This document shows, one piece after another, positions 7,521-36,806 of a stretch of DNA of 64,000 nucleotides. The stretch comes from Jannaschia sp. Os4 (GTDB lineage: Bacteria > Pseudomonadota > Alphaproteobacteria > Rhodobacterales > Rhodobacteraceae), in assembly GCF_016820245.1 (NCBI RefSeq), contig NZ_JAFCAR010000001.1:186001-250000 (forward strand). Direction: 5' to 3'. The first letter of the stretch is position 1. Every line of letters begins with the position of its first letter. The position numbers were made by a program, and so were the translations under genes. The notes under the pieces were generated by a model. That model saw only the letters and a program-made list of their open reading frames with translations, was not told the origin of the DNA and made no database searches.

Positions 7521-8493
7521 TCCAGCGGTTCACCACCCGCGCGACCTCGCGCGGGGAGAGGTCGCCCAGCACCGCGGCGGGCAGCGGCACCATCCGCGCC
7601 CCGTCGAGCAGGATCGCCACGCCGAGCGAGGTGGGCACCGCGCGCATCCCCTTGGTCCACGGCGCCTCGATCACGAGGTCGGGGGCTTCGGCGCGCATCC
7701 CCTCGGGGCGCAGCGAGACCCGCCACCGATGCGGCAGGCCGGGCGCGCGCATCCGGGCCAAGGCGCGGGCGCGGTGCCCCGCCCAGCCTGACAGCGCCAG
7801 CAGCAGCCCCATCGGGAGCCCGATCACGGCGAGGCGGAGCGGGACGGCCCACCCGGGGAAGTCCGGCCAGGCCGAGACCGCCACGGGCCACAGGACCGCG
7901 AGCGCGAAGAGGAGGTCCGGCAGGATCGCGCGGCGGCCCTCCGGCCGCGCGGCGGCGCGGGTCCAGCGGGCCCGCCCGCGCTTGGGCAGGTCGAAGGACA
8001 GGTCCAGCGACGCGCCCCCCTCGCGCCGGGCGATCCACGCGCGGACCTTCTCGGCGGCGCGGGCCGGATCGGCGAGGGCGGCGGCGGGGATCGGCAGCAC
8101 GTCCTCCGGCCCGCGCCAGAGCAGCAGGTCGCCCTTGGTCGAGCGCGGGGCCCCGAAGGTGGTCCACCCCGCCTGCAGCCGGGCCGCCCCCGCCCGCCAG
8201 TCCACCCCCTGCCGCCCGATGCGGGCCTTCACGGGTCCGGACACGAGGGGGCCGCGCCGCCGGGCGCGCGCGCGCGCCGCCTCGAACCATGCCAGCAGCA
8301 GGACGCCGAGCGCCAAGGCGGCCACCGGCGCCCACGGCCAGTCGGGGCGCAGCGCGGCGGCGGCCACCGCTGTGCCGGCGCAGGCCGCCGCGCCCAAGCC
8401 CACGACCCAGCCGCCGCGCCGGGCCACCGCCGCGCGCGCCAGCGCATCGGCAGCGTCCGCGCCGATCTCGAAGGAGTAGTCCCGTCCCGCCAT
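7504..8493 (-). CDS. Membrane protein with two tandem YcxB-like units
   Basis: The protein has 329 aa and is built as a duplication. Each half has a hydrophobic hairpin (about residues 27-67 and 188-222) followed by a soluble beta-rich stretch. Both stretches share the pattern basic/Trp - hydrophobic strand - P.P..AL/VL - helix - (V)W: first GRQGVDWRAGAARLQAGW to PIPAAALADPARAAEKVRAWI, then LRPEGMRAEAPDLVIEAPW to PLPAAVLGDLSPREVARVVNRWI. This resembles the YcxB-like C-terminal domain of small membrane proteins of unknown function. The function is unknown. It is convergent with the LysR gene and divergent from the MFS gene. Confidence 0.6.
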   Translation of the reverse strand: MAGRDYSFEIGADAADALARAAVARRGGWVVGLGAAACAGTAVAAAALRPDWPWAPVAALALGVLLLAWFEAARARARRRGPLVSGPVKARIGRQGVDWRAGAARLQAGWTTFGAPRSTKGDLLLWRGPEDVLPIPAAALADPARAAEKVRAWIARREGGASLDLSFDLPKRGRARWTRAAARPEGRRAILPDLLFALAVLWPVAVSAWPDFPGWAVPLRLAVIGLPMGLLLALSGWAGHRARALARMRAPGLPHRWRVSLRPEGMRAEAPDLVIEAPWTKGMRAVPTSLGVAILLDGARMVPLPAAVLGDLSPREVARVVNRWIRRGP

Positions 8494-8589
8494 CCGCCGT
8501 CCGGATGCCCGCGCCCCGAGGGTTATTCAATGACGCCCCCGCGTGAAGCGCGCGTGGACAGACCGTCCCCGCGGGAGTAGCGCATCCGC

Positions 8590-9813
8590 ATGCCCACCGT
8601 CCGCCTCTCCGACGCGCACGCCCTGCCCCGCTGGCGCCGGCCCGAGGCGCTGCTGATGCTGATGGCCTTCGCCATGCCGGTGGCGTTCGCCACGTGGTCG
8701 GCGCTGCTCAACAACTTCGTCGTCGAGGAGGTCGCGTTCGACGGCTCGGACATCGGCTGGCTCCACACGATCCGCGAGATCCCCGGATTCCTCGCGGTCG
8801 GCGTCATCGCGGTCCTCTTCGTGATGCGCGAGCAGACCTTGGCGCTGTCGTCCCTCGTCCTGCTGGGCGTGACCACCGCGCTGACGGCGCAGTTCCCGAG
8901 CCTGTCGGGCATCCTGTGGATCACGTTCCTGTCGTCGGTCGGCTACCACTACTACGAGACGGTCAACCAATCCCTGCAGCTCCAGTGGCTGTCCAAGGCC
9001 GAGGCGCCGCGCAAGCTGGGCATCCTGCTCTCGGTCGGCTCCTTCGCCACGCTGCTGGCCTACGGGCTGATCGTGGTGACGTGGCGCGCGTTCGACCTGT
9101 CCTACGACCTCGTCTACTGGGTCGCGGGCGGGTTCACCGCCGTCGTGGCGCTGATCGCGTGGGCCGTCTTCCCCCGGTTCGAGGCCACGCCCCAGCGTCG
9201 CGAGATCGTGCTGCGCCGCCGCTACTGGCTCTACTACGCGCTGCAGTTCATGTCGGGCGCGCGGCGCCAGATCTTCATCGTCTTCGCGGGCTTCATGATG
9301 GTCGAGCGCTACGGGTTGGAGGTGCACGAGGTCACGGCGCTCTACATGGTGACGCTCGTCATCAACATGGTCTCCGCCCCCCTGATCGGGCGCGCCGTGG
9401 GCCGCTGGGGCGAGCGCGCGGCGCTGATCGTGGAGTATGCGGGGCTGGGCACGATCTTCGTGCTCTACGCGGGCCTCTACGCGTTCGACTGGGGCGTGGC
9501 GGTGGCCTGCGTCCTCTACATGGCGAACAACGTGTTCTTCTCCCTCGCGCTGGCCATCAAGACCTACTTCCAGAAGATCGCCGACCCCGCCGACATCGCG
9601 CCCACGGCGGCCGTGGCCTTCACCATCAACCACATCGCGGCGGTCTTCCTGCCCGCGAGCCTCGGCTACCTGTGGCTCGCCTCGCCGATGGCGGTGTTCG
9701 TGGCGGCGGCGGGGATGGCGGGCGCGTCGCTCGCGCTCTCGACGCTGGTGCCGCGCCACCCGGTCGAGGGGCACGAGACCGTGCTCGCCCCCCGACTGGC
9801 GGCGGCGGAGTAG
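8590..9813 (+). CDS. Major facilitator superfamily transporter
   Basis: The protein has 407 aa with about twelve hydrophobic segments spread over its length and an Arg-rich central cytoplasmic loop (around residue 200, [14 protein letters not shown]) between the two six-helix bundles. It is an inner-membrane secondary carrier. The substrate cannot be read from the sequence. The stop codon is 32 bases before msrA on the same strand, so the two may be co-transcribed. The 96-base divergent region upstream is shared with the YcxB-like gene. Confidence 0.8.
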
Positions 9814-26594: not shown

Positions 26595-27323
26595 TCAGAA
26601 CTCCACGTCGGGCAGGCTGTCGAACGCCGCCCGCAGCGCACCCGCCCAGCCGTCCGAGATCGCGCGCCAGTCCGGGTCCGTGTCCTCGATCCGCCGCGAG
26701 TAGCCCAGCCGCAGCGCGTCGGCCTCCAGCACCTGCAGGTCGAGCGGCGTGCCGACCGACAGGTTCGCCCGGATCGTCGAGTCGAACGACACCATCAGGA
26801 GCTTCACCGCGCGCTCGAACCCCATGTCCCGGTCGTAGGCGCGCACGAGGATCGGACGCCCGTACTTGGTCTCGCCGATCTGGAAGAACGGCGTCTCGGG
26901 CTGGGCCTCGATGAAGTTGCCCTCGGGGTAGATGAGGTAGAGGCGCGGCGGGGAGCCCTTCACCTGCCCGCCGAGGATCATGGAGGCCGAGAACCCCGCC
27001 TCCTTCTCGAGCGGCGCCCGCGTCGACTGGATCACCTCCCGCAGGGTCTCCCCGACCAGCCGGGCCGCTTGGAACATCGACGGCACCGACAGAAGCGACG
27101 GCTCGCGCTCGCTCGGCGCGAGGTTGCGCTCCTCCAGGAGCGAGATCACCGCCTGGGTCGTGGCGAGGTTGCCGGCGGTCATCAGGATCATCGCCCGCTC
27201 GCCCGGCACCTCCCACGTGAAGGTCTTGCGATAGGTCGACACGTTGTCGACGCCCGCGTTGGTGCGGGTGTCGGACAGGAAGACGAGGCCGCGGTCGAGT
27301 TGCAGGCCGATGCAGTAGGTCAT
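26595..27323 (-). CDS. Anbu-type proteasome-like peptidase
   Basis: The protein has 242 aa. The N terminus MTYCIGLQLDRGLVFLSD fits the Anbu (ancestral beta subunit, BPH) family of NTN hydrolases. After Met removal Thr1 is the nucleophile, with Asp17 and Lys32 in the expected places. The glycine-rich turn AGNLATTQAVI is also typical. Anbu forms open ring-like or spiral homo-oligomers, and its in vivo substrate is unknown. It is commonly encoded with an ATP-grasp, an alpha-E and a transglutaminase protein. These partners occur here, but 600 bases away and separated by a divergent LigT-type gene. Confidence 0.9.
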   Translation of the reverse strand: MTYCIGLQLDRGLVFLSDTRTNAGVDNVSTYRKTFTWEVPGERAMILMTAGNLATTQAVISLLEERNLAPSEREPSLLSVPSMFQAARLVGETLREVIQSTRAPLEKEAGFSASMILGGQVKGSPPRLYLIYPEGNFIEAQPETPFFQIGETKYGRPILVRAYDRDMGFERAVKLLMVSFDSTIRANLSVGTPLDLQVLEADALRLGYSRRIEDTDPDWRAISDGWAGALRAAFDSLPDVEF

Positions 27324-27403
27324 GGAGATCCCCGAGTTGCGTGCCTCCCTTGGCGAGACTCCCCCGCCGCCGCAACCCGTCGGGCGCGGGCGGGTTGGGG
27401 CGC

Positions 27404-27910
27404 ATGGCCGACCCGATGATCCTGACCCTGCGGCTCGACGCGGACGCGATGTCCCGGCTCGAGGTCGAGCGCCGCGCGTTCTTCCCGGCGGCGCGCAACG
27501 TGATCCCCGCCCACGTCACCCTGTTCCAGCGCCTGCCCTACGACCGGCCGGACGAGGTGATGGCGGGCTGCGCGGCCGTGGCGCGCGCCACGGCGCCGAT
27601 GCCCGCGCGGGCGGCGGGGATCCTCGCCTTCTCGCAGGGCGGCGCGATCGCGCTGGAGGTGGACGGCTTCCACCGCCTGCGCGAACGGCTGGCCACCAAG
27701 TGGTCCTTCCCCCTCGCGGATCAGGACCGGGCCAAGCGCAAGCCCCACGCGACGGTGATGAACCGCTCCCGCAAGGAGGCCGTGGCCGTCGCCCTGGAGA
27801 TGCTCCGCGCCCGGTTCGCGCCCTTCGACGCGACCGCCGAGGGGCTCGACCTCTGGCACTACCGCGGCGGCCCGTGGGAGGCGGCGGGGGCGTGGTCCTT
27901 CGTGGGCTAG
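27404..27910 (+). CDS. LigT-type 2'-5' RNA ligase/2H phosphoesterase family protein
   Basis: The protein has 168 aa with both 2H motifs: HVTL (His37) and HATV (His115). The spacing and the lobe between them fit the compact 2H phosphoesterase/RNA ligase fold, which acts on 2',5'-linked or cyclic phosphodiesters. The substrate is unknown. I chose the ATG at 27404; the longer frame has an unlikely Arg/Pro leader. The gene stands between Anbu (divergent, 80 bases) and the transglutaminase (convergent, 3 bases), interrupting an otherwise familiar neighbourhood. Confidence 0.8.
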   Translation: MADPMILTLRLDADAMSRLEVERRAFFPAARNVIPAHVTLFQRLPYDRPDEVMAGCAAVARATAPMPARAAGILAFSQGGAIALEVDGFHRLRERLATKWSFPLADQDRAKRKPHATVMNRSRKEAVAVALEMLRARFAPFDATAEGLDLWHYRGGPWEAAGAWSFVG

Positions 27911-27913
27911 GCG

Positions 27914-28789
27914 TCAGCCCTGCGACTGCCCGCCGTCGCCCTGCGACTGGGTCATGCCGTTCATCGACTGCTGCTGCTGGCGCTGCTGCTCGACCTCGAC
28001 CGAGACGTCCAGCCGCTCCGCGCCCGCCCCCTGCCGCATCCCCGTGACGGGGGCGGCGGCGGCGTAGTCCAGCGCCGTCGCCACGCGGACGTAGCGCCCG
28101 TCGGGCGAGATGCCGTTCGACACGTCGAACCCGACCCAGCCCAACCCGTGGACATGCGCCTCGGCCCACGCGTGGGTCGCGTCCTGCGCCACCCGGTCGT
28201 CCATCATCAGGTAGCCCGAGACGTAGCGCGCGGGCACGTCCATGAACCGGCAGGCGGCGACGAACACGTGGGCGTGGTCCTGGCAGACGCCGGTGCCGTG
28301 ATCGACGGCCTCCTCGGCGCTCATGCCGACATGGGTCGAGCCGGTGGCGTAGGGGATCGCGTCGCGAATCGTGGCCGAGAGCGCGTGCAGGCGGTCGAGC
28401 GCGCCGTCGCCGCCCGCCTCGCGCGCCTGCCCCGCGAGCCGCCGCACGCCGTTGCCCGCCCGCGTCCGGTCCGTCGGCCGCAGGAACATCCACAGCGGCA
28501 TGTAGCCCCCATGCGCCCCGATCACGCCGGACCCGTCCGTCGCCTCGACCCGCCCCTCGGCGACGATGGCCACCTCGGTCGCGCCCTCGTCGACGGAGGC
28601 GAGCTGCACCCGGTTCGCGTGGCTGTCGTCGAAGGCCGTCTCGATCCGCCCGCCCTCGACCGTCACGTCCCAGTCGAGCACCTTCTGCCCCGCCCGGCTC
28701 TTGGGCGTGACGCGCAGCTGCTGCAGGCCGTAGCGCACCGGCTCGTCGTAGCGGTAGCGGGTGACGTGGCGGATGCGGAGGAGGGTCAT
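27914..28789 (-). CDS. Transglutaminase-like protein of the Anbu/ATP-grasp system
   Basis: The protein has 291 aa. The N-terminal beta region (MTLLRIRHVTRYRYDEPVRYG) is characteristic of bacterial transglutaminase N-domains. The cysteine-protease-like catalytic triad is visible: Cys169 (GTGVCQDHAHV), His207 (DATHAWAEAHV) and Asp222 (GWVGFDVSNG). These proteins are predicted to cut or form peptide/isopeptide bonds in the peptide-modification system that also uses alpha-E and ATP-grasp partners. The C terminus (about 263-291) is an unusual Gln-rich tail (QQRQQQQ). ATGA coupling to the alpha-E gene shows they are one operon; this is its last gene. Confidence 0.9.
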   Translation of the reverse strand: MTLLRIRHVTRYRYDEPVRYGLQQLRVTPKSRAGQKVLDWDVTVEGGRIETAFDDSHANRVQLASVDEGATEVAIVAEGRVEATDGSGVIGAHGGYMPLWMFLRPTDRTRAGNGVRRLAGQAREAGGDGALDRLHALSATIRDAIPYATGSTHVGMSAEEAVDHGTGVCQDHAHVFVAACRFMDVPARYVSGYLMMDDRVAQDATHAWAEAHVHGLGWVGFDVSNGISPDGRYVRVATALDYAAAAPVTGMRQGAGAERLDVSVEVEQQRQQQQSMNGMTQSQGDGGQSQG

Positions 28790-29727
28790 TCCACGAACCT
28801 GTAGTCGCGCTCGATCTGCGCGGCGAGGGCCACGTTGGCCGTGAGGAAGTCCTGCAGGAACTCGTGTAGCCCGGTCTCGAACACCCCGGCGATGGTCGTC
28901 TTGGCGAGCCGCTTGCGCAGGTCCGCGGCCATGATCTGCGACGGCCCCCGCGCCGAGTAGCACTCCTCGAGGTAGCGCAGGTTGCTCTCGATCTTGTCGG
29001 CGCAGAACGCGAGGCTGCGCGGCATCCGCCCGTCGAGCATCAGGAAGGCCGCGATCTCCGCCGCCCCGCCCCTGCGCCCGTGGACCTGCCGGAAGGCGCC
29101 CTCGCCCGACACGCCCCGCAGGATCACCTCCCATTGCGCGTTGTCGAGCCGCGAGCCCGGCCCGGAGGCCGAGGGCAGCAGCACGTAGTACTTCACGTCG
29201 AGCAGGCGGGCCGTGGCGTCGGCGCGCTCGAGGAAGGTGCCGAGCCGCGCGAAGTCGTAGGCGTCGTCGCGCAGCATCGTCCCGTGCAGCGCGCCGCGCA
29301 CGTAGCCCGAGGAGGAGCGGATCGTCCCGAGGACGCGCGGCATGTCCCGCACCGAGACGCGGCGCGACAGCGCGTCCCGCGCCGACATCCAGCCGTCGTT
29401 CACCGCCTCCCACACCTCGCGGGTCAGCGCCGTGCGCACGAGGCGCGCGTTGGTCCGCGCCGACTCGACGCAGGACAGGACGGAGGACGGGTTGTCCGGC
29501 GCGCGCAGCAGCCAGTCGATCACCGCCTCGGCGTCCACGGCCTCGTGGCGCGCGTCGTAGCCCGCGCGGGTCGCCGAGGTCTGGAGCACGCTCGTCCACT
29601 CGCTGGTCGCCGCGTCGGGCCGGGTCAGCGCGATGCGCTGGCCGGTCTCGACGAGGCGGGCGAGGTTCTCGGAGCGCTCGAGGTAGCGGAACATCCACAG
29701 GATGCCGCCGGCGGTCTTGCCCAGCAT
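28786..29727 (-). CDS. Alpha-E domain protein
   Basis: The protein has 313 aa and is all-helical. It starts MLGKTAGGILWMFRYLERSENLARLVE, the canonical alpha-E opening, and contains GTFLERADATARLLDVKYY and FCADKIESNLRYLEECY. Alpha-E is one of the conserved components of the ATP-grasp/transglutaminase/Anbu gene neighbourhood; its biochemical role is not established, with a helper role in peptide or amide chemistry proposed from genome context. It overlaps the small membrane gene upstream (TGATG) and the transglutaminase downstream (ATGA). Confidence 0.92.
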   Translation of the reverse strand: MLGKTAGGILWMFRYLERSENLARLVETGQRIALTRPDAATSEWTSVLQTSATRAGYDARHEAVDAEAVIDWLLRAPDNPSSVLSCVESARTNARLVRTALTREVWEAVNDGWMSARDALSRRVSVRDMPRVLGTIRSSSGYVRGALHGTMLRDDAYDFARLGTFLERADATARLLDVKYYVLLPSASGPGSRLDNAQWEVILRGVSGEGAFRQVHGRRGGAAEIAAFLMLDGRMPRSLAFCADKIESNLRYLEECYSARGPSQIMAADLRKRLAKTTIAGVFETGLHEFLQDFLTANVALAAQIERDYRFVE

Positions 29728-29966
29728 CAGTCCGGCCCCCCCATGTCGGGGAAGACCGGGTCGTAGTCCGCCTTCCCCCTGAAGGCGCCCGGACCGAGGC
29801 GCGCGCGCAGCCATGCGGACAGGCAAAGCATGCCCGCGACCCCGAGCGCGTAGAGGTGGACGAGACCGGCTTCCCCGCCCGCGAGCACGAAGCCGACCGC
29901 CCCGCACCAGAGCGCGAGGAGGAGCCACCCGAGCGCGTCCGCGATCCTGCGCCGACGGCCGCTCAT
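29727..29966 (-). CDS. Small two-helix membrane protein within the ATP-grasp operon
   Basis: The protein has 79 aa. Two hydrophobic helices (about residues 10-31 and 35-54) are followed by a short soluble tail (PGAFRGKADYDPVFPDMGGPD) and preceded by a basic N terminus (SGRRRRIAD), predicting N-in topology. Both ends overlap neighbours: its ATG overlaps the ATP-grasp stop (ATGA) and its stop overlaps the alpha-E start (TGATG). I recognise no family. Position and coupling strongly suggest it is translated with the complex and could dock it to the membrane. Confidence 0.72.
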   Translation of the reverse strand: MSGRRRRIADALGWLLLALWCGAVGFVLAGGEAGLVHLYALGVAGMLCLSAWLRARLGPGAFRGKADYDPVFPDMGGPD

Positions 29967-31387
29967 TCCTCCAGCACCCACGTGTCCTTGGTCCCGCCGC
30001 CCTGCGACGAGTTCACCACGAGCGACCCCTTCTTCAGCGCCACGCGCGTCAGGCCGCCGGGCGTGATCTCGATCCCCTCGGGCGAGACCAGCACGAAGGG
30101 GCGCAGGTCGACGTGGCGGGGCGAGAGGCCCTTCTTGGTGAAGATCGGGCAGGTCGATAGCGCGAGCGTCGGCTGCGCGATGTAGTTGTCGGGCCGCGCG
30201 GTCAGCTTCTCGCGGAAGGCGGCGATCTCCTTCTTCGACGCCGCCGGCCCCACCAGCATCCCGTAGCCGCCCGAGCCGTGCACCTCCTTGACGACGAGGT
30301 CGGCGAGGTTGTCGAGCACGTGGGCCAGCGCGTCCGGCTCCGAGCAGCGCCACGTCGGCACGTTCTCGAGGAGCGGGCGCTCGCCGGTGTAGAACTCCAC
30401 GATCTCGGGCATGTAGCTGTAGATCGCCTTGTCGTCGGCCACGCCCGTGCCGGGCGCATTGGCGATGGTGATCCCGCCCGCGCGGTAGACGTCGAAGATG
30501 CCCGGCACGCCCAGCATCGAGTCGGGGCGGAAGTTAAGCGGGTCGAGGAAGGCGTCGTCCACCCGCCGGTAGAGCACGTCGATCGGCGTGTAGCCGCGCG
30601 TCGTGCGCATCGCCACGCGCCCGTCCACGACGCGCAGGTCCGACCCCTCGACCAGCTCCACGCCCATCTGGTCGGCGAGGAACGAGTGCTCGTAGTAGGC
30701 CGAGTTGTGGATGCCCGGCGTCAGCACCGCCACCACCGGCTCGCCGTCGCAGGCGGGCGGCGCCGAGGCCTCCAGCGAGCGGCGCAGCGACCGCGGATAG
30801 TTCGACACCCGCTGCACGCGGTTGCGGGCGAACAGCTCGGGGAACATCGAGAGCATCGTCTCGCGGTTCTCCAGCATGTAGCTGACGCCCGAGGGCGTGC
30901 GCGCGTTGTCCTCCAGCACGTAGAACTGGTCCGGCCCCGTCCGCACGAGGTCCGTGCCGACGATGTGGGTGTAGATGCCGCCCGGCGGCGTCACGCCGAT
31001 CATCTCGGGCAGGAAGGCGTCGTTGCGGGCGACCATGTCCACCGGCACGCGCCCCGCGCGCACGATCTCCTGCCGGTGGTGGATGTCGTGGAGGAAGGCG
31101 TTGAGCGCGCGGACCCGCTGCTCGATCCCCTTGGACAGGCGCGACCATTCCCGCGCCGACAGGATGCGCGGCACGATGTCGAACGGGATCAGCCGCTCCG
31201 CCGCGTCCTTCTCGCCGTAGACGTTGAAGGTGATCCCCGTCAGCCGGAACTGGTCGTCGGCCTCCCGCGCCTTCGCCCGCAGGCGGGCGGGGTCCTCGGT
31301 GCGGAACCAGTCCGCGAAGGCGCGATAGGGCGCGCGGGCGCCCTCGGCCCCCGGCGTGTCGGTCATCTCGTCGAAGGGGCCGTCCAT
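29963..31387 (-). CDS. Circularly permuted ATP-grasp protein
   Basis: The protein has 474 aa, of the COG2308-like permuted ATP-grasp type. Recognisable blocks are TGITFNVYGEKDAAERLIPFD, then HDIHHRQEIV, YVLEDNARTPSGVSYMLENR (acidic/Asn metal site), NAPGTGVADDKAIYSYMPEI and the glycine loop VVKEVHGSGGYGMLVGP. ATP-grasp enzymes join carboxylates to amines via acyl phosphates, so this is the predicted peptide/amide ligase of the system. It is first in the operon ATP-grasp-small TM-alpha-E-transglutaminase, 49 bases after the phospholipase D gene on the same strand. A second ATG at residue 8 (MTDTPG) is a possible start. Confidence 0.92.
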   Translation of the reverse strand: MDGPFDEMTDTPGAEGARAPYRAFADWFRTEDPARLRAKAREADDQFRLTGITFNVYGEKDAAERLIPFDIVPRILSAREWSRLSKGIEQRVRALNAFLHDIHHRQEIVRAGRVPVDMVARNDAFLPEMIGVTPPGGIYTHIVGTDLVRTGPDQFYVLEDNARTPSGVSYMLENRETMLSMFPELFARNRVQRVSNYPRSLRRSLEASAPPACDGEPVVAVLTPGIHNSAYYEHSFLADQMGVELVEGSDLRVVDGRVAMRTTRGYTPIDVLYRRVDDAFLDPLNFRPDSMLGVPGIFDVYRAGGITIANAPGTGVADDKAIYSYMPEIVEFYTGERPLLENVPTWRCSEPDALAHVLDNLADLVVKEVHGSGGYGMLVGPAASKKEIAAFREKLTARPDNYIAQPTLALSTCPIFTKKGLSPRHVDLRPFVLVSPEGIEITPGGLTRVALKKGSLVVNSSQGGGTKDTWVLEE

Positions 31388-31436
31388 CGCGGCACCATCG
31401 CCCCCCCTCCGCCGGGGCGCAACCCGAAGTCCGGTC

Positions 31437-32996
31437 TCAGACCATCTCCTCGGGGACGCCGGGCACGTCCTGCCCGAAATCGCGCCACCGCTTCGTCGCG
31501 TGGGGCAGCACGAAGCCGCGCCGCTCCTCGGGCCGGGTCGCCGCGTTGTGCGCCCCCAGCCGCCGCCACGCGCGGATCATGGTGCTGGGGTCGAGATACT
31601 CCTCCGGCCAGTCGCCCGGCCCGAGGATGCCCGACATGCAGCGCCGCCGCACCTCGCCCGCCGCCGCGCCCCGGATCGGCACGGCGACCTCCGTGTCCCA
31701 GTAGAGGCTCCGCCCGTTCAGGTTGGCCGAGCCCACCACGGCGATCTCGTCGTCCACGACCGTGACCTTGGAGTGCAGGTAGATCAGCGGCGCGCCGTGG
31801 ATGATCGAGGGGCCGGAGCCCTGCGCCGTCACCCGCCGCGCGGGCGACGCCACGTAGAGGCGGGCGCCGAACGCGCCCTGCAGCTTCCGCAGCGCCCGCG
31901 TCTGGAGGAACACCCCGAGGCGCGCGTCCACGCGGGTGTTCCCCTCGAAGGCCACGTCCTCCGGCGCGGCGGGCACGACCGCCAGCAGCGACAGCTGCGG
32001 CACCTCCCGGGCGCGCTCGGCCAAGGCGGCGGCGATCCGGCGGTCGCGCAGGAACTGCGTCTCGACGTAGACGAAGCGCTCGGCCCGGGCGATGGCGTCG
32101 TGCAGGGCCTCGGCGATCTCGGACAGGACCGGGCGGGGGGACATGCGGATGCCGTCGAAGTTGCGCCTCTGCGACAGCGTGCGCAGGATCAGCCCGCCGG
32201 CGTCCGACGGCTCGGCCTCGTCCGCGATCACGGCCTCGAACTCCTCGACATGGCGGCGCAGGGCCTTCGCCGTCGCGGGATCGCGCAGCGTGACGTGGAC
32301 GTCGTGCCACGTCTCGGGGCCGGGCCGGTCGTGGGCGGGCGTGTCCCAGCGCCGCTCGTTGAGGTCGAGGCCGCCCACGTAGGCGATCTCGTCGTCGATC
32401 ACCGCGACCTTCTGGTGGTGCGTCACCGGGCTGAGCGGCGGGACGGGCCAGCGCCGCGGCCCCGCCGCGTCCTCGTCCAGCATCAGCAGCCGCGAGGTGT
32501 TCGGGTGCTCCGAGCGGAACCGCGCGCGGCGGGACTCGGACATCTTCAGCAGCCGCCCCGCCTTGTCCCGCAGCATCCGGTCCACGCGCGGCCAGAGCAG
32601 CAGGCGCGGCAGCATGCCGATGGTCGCGGGGTGGAGCGAGGCATGCGCGTCGAGGCGGCTGCCCGCCGGCGCCAGCTCGCGGAGCGCGCTGACCTGGCGC
32701 AGCGTCCGCCACGTCATGCCGTGCAGCTCCTCGCCGACGACCCCGTCGAAGTCCGACAGCACGATCCTCACCGCCACGCCGCGCTGCAGCACGTGCAGGA
32801 TTAGGTCGAACCAGTCCCCCCCCACCGCCTGCCCCTCGGCGGTCCGCAGGCGGGTGGAGAGGTCGAAGATGCGGAAGGCGCACAGCACGCTCTCGCGCGC
32901 GCCCAGCACGTGGCGCTCGAACGCGGGGTAGGCCTCCGCGGCGGTAACGTGGATCTCGGGGGGGGGCTGCTCGCCCGCACCGTCGCGCCGTTCCAT
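31437..32996 (-). CDS. Phospholipase D-family protein
   Basis: The protein has 519 aa with two HKD active-site motifs: H194-x-K196 with downstream D (HHQKVAVIDDE) and H408-x-K410 (YLHSKVTVVDDE), each followed by the typical GG.N or GSANLN.RS stretch. This is the transphosphatidylase layout of cardiolipin synthases and secreted PLDs, but there are no N-terminal membrane helices or clear signal peptide. It starts one base after the histidine kinase stop codon, making it the fourth gene of nepR-ecfG-kinase-PLD, and would therefore be stress-induced. Role by inference: phospholipid remodelling during stress. Confidence 0.88.
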   Translation of the reverse strand: MERRDGAGEQPPPEIHVTAAEAYPAFERHVLGARESVLCAFRIFDLSTRLRTAEGQAVGGDWFDLILHVLQRGVAVRIVLSDFDGVVGEELHGMTWRTLRQVSALRELAPAGSRLDAHASLHPATIGMLPRLLLWPRVDRMLRDKAGRLLKMSESRRARFRSEHPNTSRLLMLDEDAAGPRRWPVPPLSPVTHHQKVAVIDDEIAYVGGLDLNERRWDTPAHDRPGPETWHDVHVTLRDPATAKALRRHVEEFEAVIADEAEPSDAGGLILRTLSQRRNFDGIRMSPRPVLSEIAEALHDAIARAERFVYVETQFLRDRRIAAALAERAREVPQLSLLAVVPAAPEDVAFEGNTRVDARLGVFLQTRALRKLQGAFGARLYVASPARRVTAQGSGPSIIHGAPLIYLHSKVTVVDDEIAVVGSANLNGRSLYWDTEVAVPIRGAAAGEVRRRCMSGILGPGDWPEEYLDPSTMIRAWRRLGAHNAATRPEERRGFVLPHATKRWRDFGQDVPGVPEEMV

Positions 32997-32997
32997 G

Positions 32998-34713
32998 TCA
33001 GTAATCCTTGGCCGGTGGCTTGCTGGCCTCCTCGGGGAAGCGCAGTTCGACGGCGTAGGTTCCCGATCCGTCGGCGCCGGTCTCCAGCCGCCCGCCGACC
33101 TGCTGCGCGAAGGCGCGGATCAGCTGCGACCCGAGGCGTGCGCCCCCCGGCTCGGCATCGGCGCCGCCGGCCCCCTCCGCGGCGACGGGGTTCTCGATCC
33201 GGAGCCGGACCTCGCCCGCCTCGACCGAGACGTGGATGCGCGCCCCGCCCGCGCCGTGGCGCTGGGCGTTGGTCAGCGCCTCCGACACCAGCAGCGAGAG
33301 CGGGACCGCGCGGTCCGGGTCCAGCGCGATCCCGTCCGGGCCCTCCACGGCCGGCGCGGGCCCGAGCGCGGCGCCGCCCTGCCCCGCCTGCTGGGCCAGC
33401 TCGCGCAGGAGGCGGCGGAGGTCGATGCGGTGGAGGTCGTCCGACTGGTAGAGCGCGCGGTGCACCAGCGCGAGCCCCATGATCCGGTCCTGCAGCCGCC
33501 CGAGCGGCGCCCGCGCGGCGGCGTCGGCGACCCGCCGCCCCTCCATGTTCACGACGGACGAGATGAGCTGCAGGTTGTTCTTCACCCGGTGGTGGACCTC
33601 CTTCAGCAGCACGTTCTTCTCGCGGAGGTTGTCCTCGAGGGTGGCCTCGTCGCGCAGGATCGACCCCGCCATGTCGCGGAAGTCGTCCTCGATCCGCACG
33701 AGTTCGGCGGGCGCGCCGGCCAGCTCGGGCGAGTCCGAGAGGCGGCGCGACCGCGCGAAGCGGCGCATCTGGTCCGACAGGGTCCGGATCGGGCGTCCGA
33801 CCATCATCTCCACCGCGAGGATCGCCACCACGAGCGACGTCGCCCACATCGCCAAGGGCATCCCGAGCGAGCGCAGCGCGGACAGCCACGGCGGGGTCTG
33901 CGAGGCGACGGGCCAGCTGCCGACCGCGTAGGCCACGTCGGGGACGAGCGTGGCGACCGCGTAGGCCCTGCGCTCGCCCGTGGCGTCGGCCACCACCCGG
34001 ACGCGGCCGGGCTGCGCGAGGAGGTCGGCCAGCCCGTCCTCCGGGGGCAGGTGGAGCTCGACGTCCGCGCCGGGGACCGTCGAGGTCAGCACCCGCCCGG
34101 CGGCGTTCAGCGTAATCAACTCGATCGTCCGCTCCGCCGCGCCCAGCCCTCCGGCGACGGTCGCCGCCACGCTGTCGACCGGCACGGAGATCGACACGAA
34201 GCCCTTGAGGTCGGCGCCCTCGCGCACCGGGCGCGTGACGATCAGCACCGCCTGCCCGCTGAGCGGCGCGTCGGGGTTGCTGGTGATGTTGATCCTCGGA
34301 TCCTCGACGGACTCCCCGAAGGAGTCGAAGGTCGAGAAGTCGAAGGGCCGCCCCGCCGTGGAGCAGGTCATGCGCCCGTCGCGGGGCAGCAGCCCCACGA
34401 AGGAATAGTCCGGCCGCTCCTCGAGGATGCGCCCGAGGTAGACGGCGCAGCCATCCGGGTCGGCCTGGAGCCGGTCGAACAGGACCCCGATCGCGCCCGC
34501 CGCGCCGAGCGCGCCTTGGATCGTCGACTGGAGCGGGTTCGCCGCCCGCTCGGTGCGGGCGAGCAGCAGCAGGTCCTCCTGCCGCTCGGCGGCCGAGATG
34601 ACGCGCGCGCTCTGCCAGTAGGCGATGGCCCCGAGGGGCAGCAGCGCGAGCGTGAGCATGAGGATGAGGCGGGGCCTCAGCCCCGCGCCCCTCCGGTCGG
34701 CGGCATCGGCCAC
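32998..34713 (-). CDS. Sensor histidine kinase of the general stress response (HisKA_2/HWE type)
   Basis: The protein has 571 aa. It has a membrane helix at about 17-33, a large periplasmic sensing region (about 35-275), a second helix at about 283-304, a HAMP-like linker (GRPIRTLSDQMRRFARS), then KEVHHRVKNNLQ with the phospho-acceptor at His374/375, and a HATPase domain (SLLVSEALTNAQRHG; GARLGSQLIRAF). This family commonly feeds PhyR in alphaproteobacteria. It starts four bases after ecfG, so sensor, sigma factor and anti-sigma factor are co-transcribed. The signal it detects is unknown. Confidence 0.9.
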   Translation of the reverse strand: MADAADRRGAGLRPRLILMLTLALLPLGAIAYWQSARVISAAERQEDLLLLARTERAANPLQSTIQGALGAAGAIGVLFDRLQADPDGCAVYLGRILEERPDYSFVGLLPRDGRMTCSTAGRPFDFSTFDSFGESVEDPRINITSNPDAPLSGQAVLIVTRPVREGADLKGFVSISVPVDSVAATVAGGLGAAERTIELITLNAAGRVLTSTVPGADVELHLPPEDGLADLLAQPGRVRVVADATGERRAYAVATLVPDVAYAVGSWPVASQTPPWLSALRSLGMPLAMWATSLVVAILAVEMMVGRPIRTLSDQMRRFARSRRLSDSPELAGAPAELVRIEDDFRDMAGSILRDEATLEDNLREKNVLLKEVHHRVKNNLQLISSVVNMEGRRVADAAARAPLGRLQDRIMGLALVHRALYQSDDLHRIDLRRLLRELAQQAGQGGAALGPAPAVEGPDGIALDPDRAVPLSLLVSEALTNAQRHGAGGARIHVSVEAGEVRLRIENPVAAEGAGGADAEPGGARLGSQLIRAFAQQVGGRLETGADGSGTYAVELRFPEEASKPPAKDY

Positions 34714-34717
34714 GGGA

Positions 34718-35302
34718 TCAGAGGCTGCCGTTCTGCATGGAGCTGACCACGGCCATCGTGGCCGGGTCGGTCAGTTCGAAGGCGTCCTCCTGGGACATGC
34801 CCATCAGCTCGACCAGCTTGGCGCGGCCGCGGTTGACCCGGCTCTTGATGGTGCCGACCGCGACGCCGCAGGTCTCGGCGGCCTCCTCGTAGGCGAAGCC
34901 GGACGCCCCGACGAGGATCAGCGCCTCGCGCTGCTCCTCGGGGAGCTTCTCGAACGCGGTCTCGAAGTCCATCAGGTTCAGCCGCCCGTCGTGGTCGGGC
35001 TTGCGCGACAGGGACGCGGTGATGACGCCGTCGGTGTCGGGCACCTCGCGCTTCGCCTTGCGGCGGTTCGAGTAGTAGGTGTTGCGCAGGATGGTGAAAA
35101 GCCACGCCCGCATGTTCGTGCCGGGCTTGAACTTGTCGAGGTTCGACCACGCCTTCACGAGGGCGTCCTGCACCATGTCGTCGGCCAGGGACGCGTTGCG
35201 CGTCAGCGATACCGCGAAGGCGCGCATCGCGGGGAGATGCTCGACGATCTCCTTGCGGGGATCGGGTGCGCCGGGGATCGGCGCGTCGGAGGCGTCGGTC
35301 AT
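34718..35302 (-). CDS. ecfG: EcfG-type RNA polymerase sigma factor (general stress response)
   Basis: The protein has 194 aa. Sigma region 2 is FAVSLTRNASLADDMVQDALVKAWSNLDKF with GTNMRAWLFTILRNTYYSNRRK, and region 4 is EKLPEEQREALILVGASGFAYEEAAE followed by VGTIKSRVNRGRAKLVEL. The neighbouring nepR and phyR identify it as the EcfG branch that drives the alphaproteobacterial general stress response from GGAAC-N16/17-cGTT promoters. Its ATG overlaps the nepR stop (ATGA), so anti-sigma factor and sigma factor are made together. Autoregulation is likely through the promoter at 35533-35564. Confidence 0.95.
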   Translation of the reverse strand: MTDASDAPIPGAPDPRKEIVEHLPAMRAFAVSLTRNASLADDMVQDALVKAWSNLDKFKPGTNMRAWLFTILRNTYYSNRRKAKREVPDTDGVITASLSRKPDHDGRLNLMDFETAFEKLPEEQREALILVGASGFAYEEAAETCGVAVGTIKSRVNRGRAKLVELMGMSQEDAFELTDPATMAVVSSMQNGSL

Positions 35303-35469
35303 TTCGAGCCCTCCGCGTCGGCGGGCTCGGGCGCGCTGCCCCGTTCCAGTTGCGCCAGCAGCTTCGCGAAGCGGTCGGGGACGTCCTCCTGCAGCACGTC
35401 GTCGTAGACGCGACGCAGGTTCTGGTCGATCAGGTCGTCGACCCGATTGCTGGGTTGGTCTTGGCTCAT
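35299..35469 (-). CDS. nepR: Anti-sigma factor NepR
   Basis: The protein has 56 aa, starting at the ATG at 35469 (MSQDQPSNRVDDLIDQNLRR). The conserved NepR core is present: LRRVYDDVLQEDVPDRFAKL, then LAQLE. NepR holds EcfG inactive and is titrated by phosphorylated PhyR (partner switching). Its position, first in the operon, overlapping ecfG (ATGA) and divergent from phyR, is the standard arrangement. The acidic tail (EPADAEGSK) is not conserved in the family. Confidence 0.93.
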   Translation of the reverse strand: MSQDQPSNRVDDLIDQNLRRVYDDVLQEDVPDRFAKLLAQLERGSAPEPADAEGSK

Positions 35470-35532
35470 ACGGTCCCCATGTCCCCCGTGCGTCCGGCCG
35501 CACGCGCCTGCGGGATCTGACGTCCCGGTCGC

Positions 35533-35564
35533 GGAACTAAACCCGAGAGTGCATGTTTGGTTCC
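35533..35564. promoter_or_regulatory. Overlapping divergent EcfG promoters between nepR and phyR
   Basis: On the plus strand GGAAC (35533-35537)-N16-TGTTT (35554-35558) faces phyR. On the minus strand GGAAC (35564-35560)-N16-GGTTT (35543-35539) faces nepR. The two elements are nested into one 32-base near-palindrome (GGAAC.AAAC ... GTTT.GTTCC). EcfG sites are GGAAC-N16/17-CGTT-like, so each matches at the -35 and nearly at the -10. RNA polymerase could probably occupy only one direction at a time. Confidence 0.8.
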
Positions 35565-35597
35565 CGGCACAACCGACAACAGAAGATGGGGGACATC

Positions 35598-36392
35598 GTG
35601 ACGGACACCACCGCCGAGATCAGCCGGGCGCTTCCGTACCTGCGGCAGTATGCGCGGGCGCTGACGGGCTCGCAGGCATCGGGCGACAACTACGCGGCCG
35701 CGACCTTGGAGGCGATCCTCTCCGACCGCAGCCTCCTCGAGGACGCGACGAGCACGCGGGCGGCCCTGTTCCGGACCTTCCACGGCATCTGGATCTCGTC
35801 CGGCGCGCCGGTCGCGGGCGACGAGGCGGGCCTCGCCGCGCGGGCCCAGAAGCACATGGCGGGCCTGACCGGCAACACCCGCGAGGCGCTGCTGCTCCAC
35901 ACCCTGCTCGACTTCACCTTCGCCGAGGTCGCCGAGATCATGGGCCTCGACCCGGTCGAGGCGCACGAGCTCGTCGAGACCGCCCGGCGCGAGATGGCGG
36001 ACGCGGTGGCCGGCAGCGTGATGATCATCGAGGACGAGTCGATCATCGCGATGGACCTTGAGGCGCTGGTCTCCGACATGGGCCACCGCGTCACCGGGAT
36101 CGCGCGCACCCATGCCGAGGCGGTCAAGCTCGCCGGCGAGGAACTGCCGGACCTGATCCTCGCGGACATCCAGCTCGCCGACAACTCGTCGGGCATCGAG
36201 GCGGTCAACGAGGTGATGCAGGATCTGGGCAAGCGCCCCGTCATCTTCATCACCGCCTTCCCCGAGCGGCTGCTGTCGGGCGAGCGCAAGGAGCCCGCCT
36301 TCCTGATCCCGAAGCCCTACACCCAGGAGAAGGTCCGCTCGGCGGTGTCCCAGGCCATGTTCTTCGCCTCGACGGAGACCCTGTCGGCCTAG
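35598..36392 (+). CDS. phyR: General stress response regulator PhyR
   Basis: The protein has 264 aa from the GTG at 35598. An EcfG-like sigma domain (SRALPYLRQYARALTGSQASGD to EVAEIMGLDPVEAHELVETARREM) is followed by a receiver (VMIIEDESIIAMDLEALV; phospho-acceptor Asp in LILADIQLADNSSG; VIFITAF; IPKPYTQEKV). When phosphorylated, the sigma-like domain captures NepR and frees EcfG. The GTG is preceded by GGGGGA. An ATG at 35586 is possible, and an ATG at 35552-35554 would overlap the -10 of the promoter, so it is excluded. A strong hairpin ends the gene. Confidence 0.95.
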   Translation: MTDTTAEISRALPYLRQYARALTGSQASGDNYAAATLEAILSDRSLLEDATSTRAALFRTFHGIWISSGAPVAGDEAGLAARAQKHMAGLTGNTREALLLHTLLDFTFAEVAEIMGLDPVEAHELVETARREMADAVAGSVMIIEDESIIAMDLEALVSDMGHRVTGIARTHAEAVKLAGEELPDLILADIQLADNSSGIEAVNEVMQDLGKRPVIFITAFPERLLSGERKEPAFLIPKPYTQEKVRSAVSQAMFFASTETLSA

Positions 36393-36404
36393 TGAAAGTA
36401 CCGG

Positions 36405-36427
36405 TCCGGCCCCGCCACGGGGCCGGA
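36405..36427. terminator. Bidirectional hairpin between phyR and the receiver-like gene
   Basis: TCCGGCCCCG-CCA-CGGGGCCGGA is a perfect 10-bp stem with a three-base loop, lying 12 bases beyond the phyR stop and one base from the stop of the converging gene. It would end transcripts from both sides. The T-runs are short. Confidence 0.75.
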
Positions 36428-36428
36428 T

Positions 36429-36806
36429 TCAGGAGCTGCCGACGGTGCGACGGCCTGTCGCAGCGCCGGATTTCGCTATGTCGATCGACGCATGGAAGTC
36501 GGCATCCGTGAACGGACGCCGCAGGATCGTCCAGCCGCGATCGCTCGCGACCTGCGACGCGCCGCCCGTCGGGATCGCCAGGACGGACGCGCCCGACGAC
36601 GCGATCGCGGAAGTTTCGGCCACGGCCTCGAAAACGCTTTCATCGCCTTGGAGGACGACGACGATCGTCCCGGCGTCCGGTCCGGCCGGCACGAGGTCGG
36701 ACGGGGTCTCGGCCTCGACGATCTCGGCGGCGGGATGCACCTCCCGGATCAGGTCCACGAGGTCGATCCGGATCAGCAGGTCCGTCGCGTATATGTAAAA
36801 TCCCAT
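36429..36806 (-). CDS. Degenerate receiver-like protein next to phyR
   Basis: The protein has 125 aa. Its strand/helix pattern follows a response-regulator receiver: MGFYIYATDLLIRIDLVDLI, then EIVEAETPSDLV, VVVLQGDE, SVLAIPTGG and a terminal LRRPFTDADFHASI that matches the usual KPF/Asp region. The expected phospho-acceptor Asp after the third strand is not present (the strand reads GTIVVVLQGDES) and the switch Lys is replaced by Arg. It therefore looks like a pseudo-receiver. It converges with phyR and is divergent from the Crp/Fnr gene. A stress-related role is inferred only from location. Confidence 0.65.
   Translation of the reverse strand: MGFYIYATDLLIRIDLVDLIREVHPAAEIVEAETPSDLVPAGPDAGTIVVVLQGDESVFEAVAETSAIASSGASVLAIPTGGASQVASDRGWTILRRPFTDADFHASIDIAKSGAATGRRTVGSS

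Follow-up and report, generated by a model that had tools for sequence, protein, structure and literature searches.

Are the general stress locus of Jannaschia sp. Os4 and the operon that lies directly behind it read as one unit? The question is raised by a 64,000-nucleotide stretch of contig NZ_JAFCAR010000001.1 (positions 186,001 to 250,000), here called the window, where the open reading frame (ORF) list and Pfam matches place eight minus-strand genes at 27914-35469. The first four are nepR, ecfG, a sensor kinase gene and a PLD-superfamily gene. The other four begin with an ATP-grasp gene and end with a transglutaminase gene and, from gene content and published gene order, are recognised as the known Anbu operon. 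A first-pass annotation had proposed a single eight-gene stress operon. We think it probable, instead, that two units, separate and each conserved in its own right, abut here, and that the second has its own promoter in the 49-base gap (31388-31436) between the PLD and ATP-grasp genes. That annotation missed both the conserved promoter-like element in the gap and the fact that the second system is the Anbu operon.

The gap between the PLD and ATP-grasp genes

The close packing on which the operon proposal was built is borne out by the coordinates. nepR and ecfG overlap by 4 bases, ecfG and the kinase gene are 4 bases apart, and a single base separates the kinase and PLD genes; after the 49-base gap, the ATP-grasp gene overlaps the gene of a 79-amino-acid protein, which overlaps the Alpha-E gene, which in turn overlaps the transglutaminase gene. 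The gap had also been said to lack a hairpin, and this stands: a scan of 27300-36600 reported no intrinsic terminator, and 31370-31445 folds no better than its shuffles (z 0.22). With spacing this tight and a gap in which the scan detected no terminator, transcription from the EcfG promoter could read through into the ATP-grasp gene.

What, then, does the gap contain? A predicted -10 sequence, GATGGT, follows a -35-like TTGCGC after 17 bases and ends 6 bases short of the ATG (31387) of the ATP-grasp gene; this position suggests a leaderless mRNA that would start at the ATG itself. Across 20 genomes of the genus, one of them the window genome (G-numbers below denote genomes and L-numbers loci), we scored the pattern TTG-N20-NANNNT, required to end 4-9 bases ahead of the ATG of the ATP-grasp gene. 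It is present in 18 of the 20, a count that uses a corrected ATP-grasp start for locus L138. By comparison, it stands before 1 of 344 control ORFs taken from the same loci and 200 amino acids or longer (2 of 344 when any ATG in the first 40 codons is allowed), and over 500 rounds of dinucleotide shuffling it appeared in a mean of 0.11 of 20 sequences, with a maximum of 2. The five best conserved of 45 upstream positions in the genus genomes are -35, -34, -33, -7 and -11. A scoring matrix was derived from those of the 19 relatives that have the pattern, 17 in all, with the window excluded; no plus-strand and two minus-strand positions in the whole window score at least as high as the gap site, and among the 6651 window positions with an ATG following at the required distance, the only one to reach that score is the gap site itself. 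The first-pass annotation had named a promoter in the gap as the feature that would speak against its operon. An element of this kind is predicted there, and by that measure the simple eight-gene unit is disfavoured.

To which of the two systems does the element belong? Outside the genus we compared 44 NepR-bearing genera (of 74 among the matches listed, and including G039, G092, G128 and G081) with 40 NepR-less genera; the genera were hand-picked in label order rather than at random, and matches near contig ends and some fragmented genomes were skipped. With a spacer of 16-18 bases allowed, the pattern occurs in 15 of the 44 and in 12 of the 40. It is thus equally common with and without NepR, and therefore belongs to the ATP-grasp operon rather than to the stress system. 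The element would presumably be read by the housekeeping sigma factor. Leaderless transcripts that start at AUG have been documented in Sinorhizobium meliloti, and the portion of PMC3616915 drawn on here cites leaderless transcripts for Rhodobacter sphaeroides. If the prediction is right, the conserved leaderless-type promoter supplies an exact start site for the second unit.

Several observations weigh against a working promoter in the gap. The element matches the textbook -35 and -10 hexamers at 6 of 12 positions, the generic scan of 27300-36600 did not report it, and the sites from which the matrix was built had been selected by that same TTG-N20-NANNNT pattern. Moreover, 14-23 bases ahead of the ATP-grasp ATG the window has a run rich in G that could act as a distant ribosome-binding site (-9.1 kcal/mol; the genus median is -1.5), and with it a leaderless start fits less well. 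The element could be weak here, in which case read-through might dominate.

The coordinates of the features are collected in the table. NepR, an EcfG-type sigma factor and PhyR are encoded together, as is characteristic of a PhyR-NepR-EcfG stress locus. The NCBIfam model that the ecfG product matches above cut-off is titled without the word EcfG; the product is 88-92% identical to its counterparts in five genus mates. The kinase matches the NCBIfam PhyK model over nearly its full length, though below cut-off (224 of 750 bits), and the PLD protein has weak, sub-cut-off matches to NCBIfam cardiolipin synthase models. No family was found in Pfam or NCBIfam for the 79-amino-acid protein. For phyR we prefer the start at 35586 to the ORF-based start at 35553, as the latter lies inside the EcfG-type promoter element. 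Matches to the 2'-5' RNA ligase-superfamily gene occur at the corresponding position in 5 of the 19 genus mates.

Features of the locus and of corresponding loci in relatives (coordinates are those of the window unless a locus is given)
Feature	Position	Strand	Basis or context
nepR, anti-sigma factor	35299..35469	-	Pfam PF18557, E 1.7e-16, above cut-off; NCBIfam NepR model match below cut-off
ecfG, general-stress extracytoplasmic function sigma factor	34718..35302	-	Pfam Sigma70_r2/r4_2, PhyR_sigma2; NCBIfam PRK12546 'RNA polymerase sigma factor' above cut-off
PhyK-like HisKA_2/HWE sensor histidine kinase	32998..34713	-	Pfam PF07568
PLD-superfamily protein, two PLD active-site motifs	31437..32996	-	Pfam PF00614, PF13091
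Predicted conserved promoter of ATP-grasp operon	31394..31422	-	-35 TTGCGC 31422-31417; -10 GATGGT 31399-31394; N17 spacer
Circularly permuted ATP-grasp protein (CP_ATPgrasp_2)	29963..31387	-	Pfam PF14403, E 5e-165; PDB 3n6x
79-amino-acid protein with hydrophobic stretches	29727..29966	-	ORF; start and stop overlap neighbours
Alpha-E protein	28786..29727	-	Pfam PF04168, E 1.3e-82
Bacterial transglutaminase-like protein	27914..28789	-	Pfam PF08379, PF01841
2'-5' RNA ligase-superfamily gene	27341..27910	+	Pfam PF13563; between transglutaminase and Anbu, opposite strand
Anbu-type proteasome-like protein	26595..27323	-	Pfam PF00227; equivalent syntenic position in relatives
EcfG-type bidirectional promoter element GGAACCAAAC...GGGTTTAGTTCC	35533..35564	-	Between phyR and nepR; -35 GGAAC 35564-35560; -10 GGTT 35543-35540
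phyR, anti-anti-sigma response regulator	35586..36392	+	Divergent from nepR; Pfam PF22029, PF00072 (translated from 35553); NCBIfam PhyR family above cut-off (from 35586)
Conserved hairpin	L131:9446-9508	-	Upstream of ATP-grasp promoter
Conserved hairpin	L133:10456-10524	-	Upstream of ATP-grasp promoter
Conserved hairpin	L134:10527-10594	-	Upstream of ATP-grasp promoter
Conserved hairpin	L135:6747-6814	+	Upstream of ATP-grasp promoter
Conserved hairpin	L130:6715-6782	+	Upstream of ATP-grasp promoter
Conserved hairpin	L129:6812-6866	+	Upstream of ATP-grasp promoter
Conserved hairpin	L138:6776-6842	+	Upstream of ATP-grasp promoter
Small ORF, 56-58 amino acids, one hydrophobic stretch	L105:7809-7976	+	Strict EcfG motif before, ATP-grasp operon after
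Small ORF, 56-58 amino acids, one hydrophobic stretch	L107:7509-7682	+	Strict EcfG motif before, ATP-grasp operon after
Small ORF, 56-58 amino acids, one hydrophobic stretch	L109:10399-10566	-	EcfG-type motif before, ATP-grasp operon after
Small ORF, 56-58 amino acids, one hydrophobic stretch	L132:11448-11615	-	EcfG-type motif before, ATP-grasp operon after

How far the junction is conserved

NepR and Alpha-E are both present in all 20 genus genomes. The order nepR-ecfG...PLD followed by ATP-grasp on one strand, however, is found in 4 of them, namely the window genome, G204, G212 and G216, and it is uninterrupted in the window alone, so that the eight-gene arrangement of the first-pass annotation is not a conserved one. 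In the other three, 373-1554 bases with intervening features separate the PLD and ATP-grasp genes: a 58-amino-acid ORF in G212 (373 bases), a 56-amino-acid ORF and a terminator in G204 (446 bases), and in G216 an opposite-strand ORF of 451 amino acids. An opposite-strand ORF of 451-455 amino acids lies at this place in G208 and G211 as well as in G216 (PLD to ATP-grasp 1480-1713 bases); the L106 copy, at 8027-9382 on the minus strand, has no Pfam match, and L125 and L126 have the ORF likewise. The PLD gene also precedes the ATP-grasp gene in G208, G211 and G215, where nepR-ecfG-kinase is at another site; the distance in G215 is 101 bases. In G203 the stress and ATP-grasp loci are on the same strand but 28 kb apart. 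In a tree built on seven joined proteins, the seven genomes with PLD before ATP-grasp fall in one ten-member clade. This leads us to see the neighbourhood as an old one in the clade that has been disrupted repeatedly, and to regard the close abutment of the ATP-grasp gene on a complete stress block as peculiar, among the 20, to the window species.

Are the two loci neighbours beyond the genus? In the family we took one genome per genus, which gave 74 genomes with both genes among the matches listed, and we added 14 class genomes; sub-cut-off NepR matches, the fused 800-amino-acid Alpha-E type and the window's own genome were excluded from the distance statistics. In the family sample 3, 3 and 4 pairs lie within 10, 20 and 25 kb, where 0.40 (at most), 0.79 and 0.99 are expected (P 0.008, 0.046 and 0.018), and in the class sample 1, 3 and 3 pairs, where 0.08, 0.17 and 0.21 are expected (P 0.08, 0.0007 and 0.0013); these P values rest on small counts uncorrected for shared ancestry, and many other genomes have the loci on different contigs. 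The loci thus show a modest tendency to lie nearer each other than expected. A check put forward by the first-pass annotation was to look in other genomes for ecfG within 10 kb of such ATP-grasp genes; a few pairs do lie that close, and none has the PLD gene leading into the ATP-grasp gene. That order on one strand is in fact absent from all seven genomes of the two samples with the loci within 25 kb: G092 and G128, sisters on the tree that may represent one event, have a convergent arrangement, and in G039, G081, G273, G228 and G337 the genes are ordered differently or lie farther apart. Transcription shared from nepR therefore does not account for the proximity. Among 80 named ATP-grasp loci, whose flanks do not always cover 10 kb on both sides and from which records near the window's own genome were possibly excluded, one (L259) has nepR-ecfG-phyR in the covered flank. 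At L338, in G273 of another family of the class, the ATP-grasp and Alpha-E genes lie some 1.5 kb away from phyR, to the phyR side of the divergent phyR/nepR pair and on the same strand as phyR, and a strict EcfG motif directly behind phyR points toward them.

EcfG-type motifs, small ORFs and a conserved hairpin

The consensus of EcfG promoters is GGAAC-N16/17-CGTT. All 20 genus loci have a palindromic element between phyR and nepR, and in 10 it has the strict form GGAACN16-17CGTT toward nepR; the window is not among these, its element reading GGAAC-N16-GGTT, one base off consensus. In the window's own genome 65 strict motifs were counted, and 23 occurrences of a reversed-pattern control; this excess suggests a regulon, and none of the 65 falls within 27914-35469.

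Is the Anbu operon part of such a regulon? The first-pass annotation had suggested stress control of this peptide system in the event of read-through, and relatives offer some support for the idea that the window does not. A strict motif lies at most 500 bases upstream of the ATP-grasp gene in 7 of the 20 genus genomes, compared with 13 of 334 control ORFs, some of which are stress-locus genes; in shuffles the mean is 0.09 of 20 and the maximum 1. Relatives with a strict motif upstream of the gene include G201, G202, G210, G213 and G214. No strict motif was found within 500 bases upstream of the ATP-grasp gene in the window. Outside the genus the motif precedes the ATP-grasp gene in 4 of the 44 NepR-bearing genera and in 0 of the 40 NepR-less ones, which is too weak for a claim of family-wide EcfG control. 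In two of the six genomes with the ligase gene, the Anbu match is preceded at 87-89 bases by an EcfG motif. No published link between EcfG and the Anbu operon was found in searches of the text of open-licence papers.

In some relatives the sequence between motif and operon has features of its own. At four loci it holds a small ORF, of which the window's 49-base gap has no counterpart; the L105 copy is without a Pfam match. In G204 a terminator sits between this ORF and the ATP-grasp gene, and speaks against EcfG control of the gene there. Seven genomes of the other clade have a hairpin whose apical part is constant and whose outer stem is compensating, with changes on both sides in 11 of 17 pairs; a strict EcfG motif lies upstream in five of the seven. 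A model built from the seven matches those 7 of the 20 genus genomes, each time directly upstream of the ATP-grasp gene, with one weak second match, in G202 (E 0.05). It has no match in the window's own genome, the best 150 candidates per genome having been scored. Rfam at gathering thresholds gave no match in seven loci, five of which carry the hairpin (L129, L131, L134, L135 and L138), and in the window gave tRNA only. We regard the hairpin as a candidate stress-driven small RNA or leader element.

Competing readings and known systems

What can be said, then, for a true eight-gene stress operon, read as a single EcfG-dependent transcript from the nepR promoter, with the gap element a relic? 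The spacing and the want of a terminator suit it, as do the missing strict motif before the ATP-grasp gene and the absence from the window of the small ORF, terminator or opposite-strand ORF of three relatives. Against this, the gap element has stayed where a promoter would be expected, with the expected spacing; the complete nepR-PLD block adjoins the ATP-grasp gene without interruption in 1 of 20 genomes; the PLD and ATP-grasp genes stay close in G215 with nepR-ecfG-kinase elsewhere; and the order is seen in none of the seven further genomes whose two loci are at most 25 kb apart. Tight spacing and the missing terminator remain in its favour, but we hold the eight-gene operon to be quite improbable. 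One might go to the other extreme and take the neighbourhood for a chance rearrangement with no regulatory meaning, since adjacency is missing in 16 of 20 genus genomes, nepR-ecfG-phyR accompanies 1 of the 80 named ATP-grasp loci, and the second unit's promoter pattern is independent of NepR presence. Chance nevertheless seems an unlikely explanation in view of the excess of EcfG motifs upstream of the ATP-grasp gene and of the close pairs in family and class, although at cut-offs other than 10 kb in the family and 20 kb in the class the latter are weaker.

A further possibility is compatible with two units and adds to them. A dedicated EcfG promoter might be an old trait of the genus that normally places the Anbu operon under stress control, lost in the window species, where the joining to nepR-PLD took over. 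The motif frequency before the ATP-grasp gene argues for this (by way of scale, nepR itself has the strict motif in 10 of 20 genomes); the NepR-bearing genera, the motifs before Anbu and the somewhat frequent proximity of the loci point the same way. Yet 13 of 20 genus genomes, the window's included, have no strict motif upstream of the ATP-grasp gene, the difference between NepR-bearing and NepR-less genera is weak, G204 has its terminator, and in five genomes the conserved hairpin follows the motif, which may belong to an independent small RNA. We hold this history to be less likely than not. It is likewise conceivable, though doubtful, that the general stress response of Alphaproteobacteria recurrently has the Anbu operon among its clients, and that in this genus the stress input comes by changing means atop a constant leaderless housekeeping promoter: from an EcfG promoter dedicated to the operon, through a leader that EcfG drives and that contains the conserved hairpin, or by attachment to the nepR-PLD operon. 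If the link to the stress response, supported by motifs in one genus, is real, it would supply a condition under which the Anbu operon can be tested and organisms in which to study it.

In the arrangement of two units that we favour, the first would be the PhyR-NepR-EcfG stress locus with its PhyK-like kinase and PLD genes, driven by the EcfG-type promoter between phyR and nepR, and the second the Anbu operon, with a leaderless mRNA starting at a housekeeping-type promoter within the gap. Their close contact without a terminator probably lets some EcfG transcripts continue, adding a stress input to the basal transcript. The first-pass proposal is thus supported in part: its spacing and lack of a terminator hold, and a single unit is improbable.

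How does the locus compare with known systems? With the PhyR-NepR-EcfG locus of Alphaproteobacteria it shares divergent phyR and nepR-ecfG, an EcfG-type promoter element between them and an HWE/HisKA_2 kinase gene beside ecfG; it differs in having a PLD gene after the kinase gene, and then the Anbu operon. The arrangement in some relatives, where an EcfG motif and then a conserved hairpin stand upstream of the ATP-grasp gene, resembles that of GsrN, the EcfG-driven small RNA, as the portion of PMC5869019 drawn on here describes it. The likeness is one of layout, and the hairpin is seen only upstream of the ATP-grasp gene and was not found in the window. For the Anbu operon, PMC6376114 gives four genes in the conserved order ATP-grasp, alphaE, transglutaminase, Anbu, and PMC5666114 the identical set. 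In the parts of these two articles used here, the modified targets and the conditions under which the operon is needed are unsettled; PMC5666114 has its expression as moderate and constitutive in other bacteria, and cites work in which Anbu was induced under nitrogen limitation. The window shares the four genes in the published order. As compared with the operon so described, it has a small-protein gene between ATP-grasp and Alpha-E and an opposite-strand 2'-5' RNA ligase gene between transglutaminase and Anbu, and its copy is placed 49 bases behind a stress locus.

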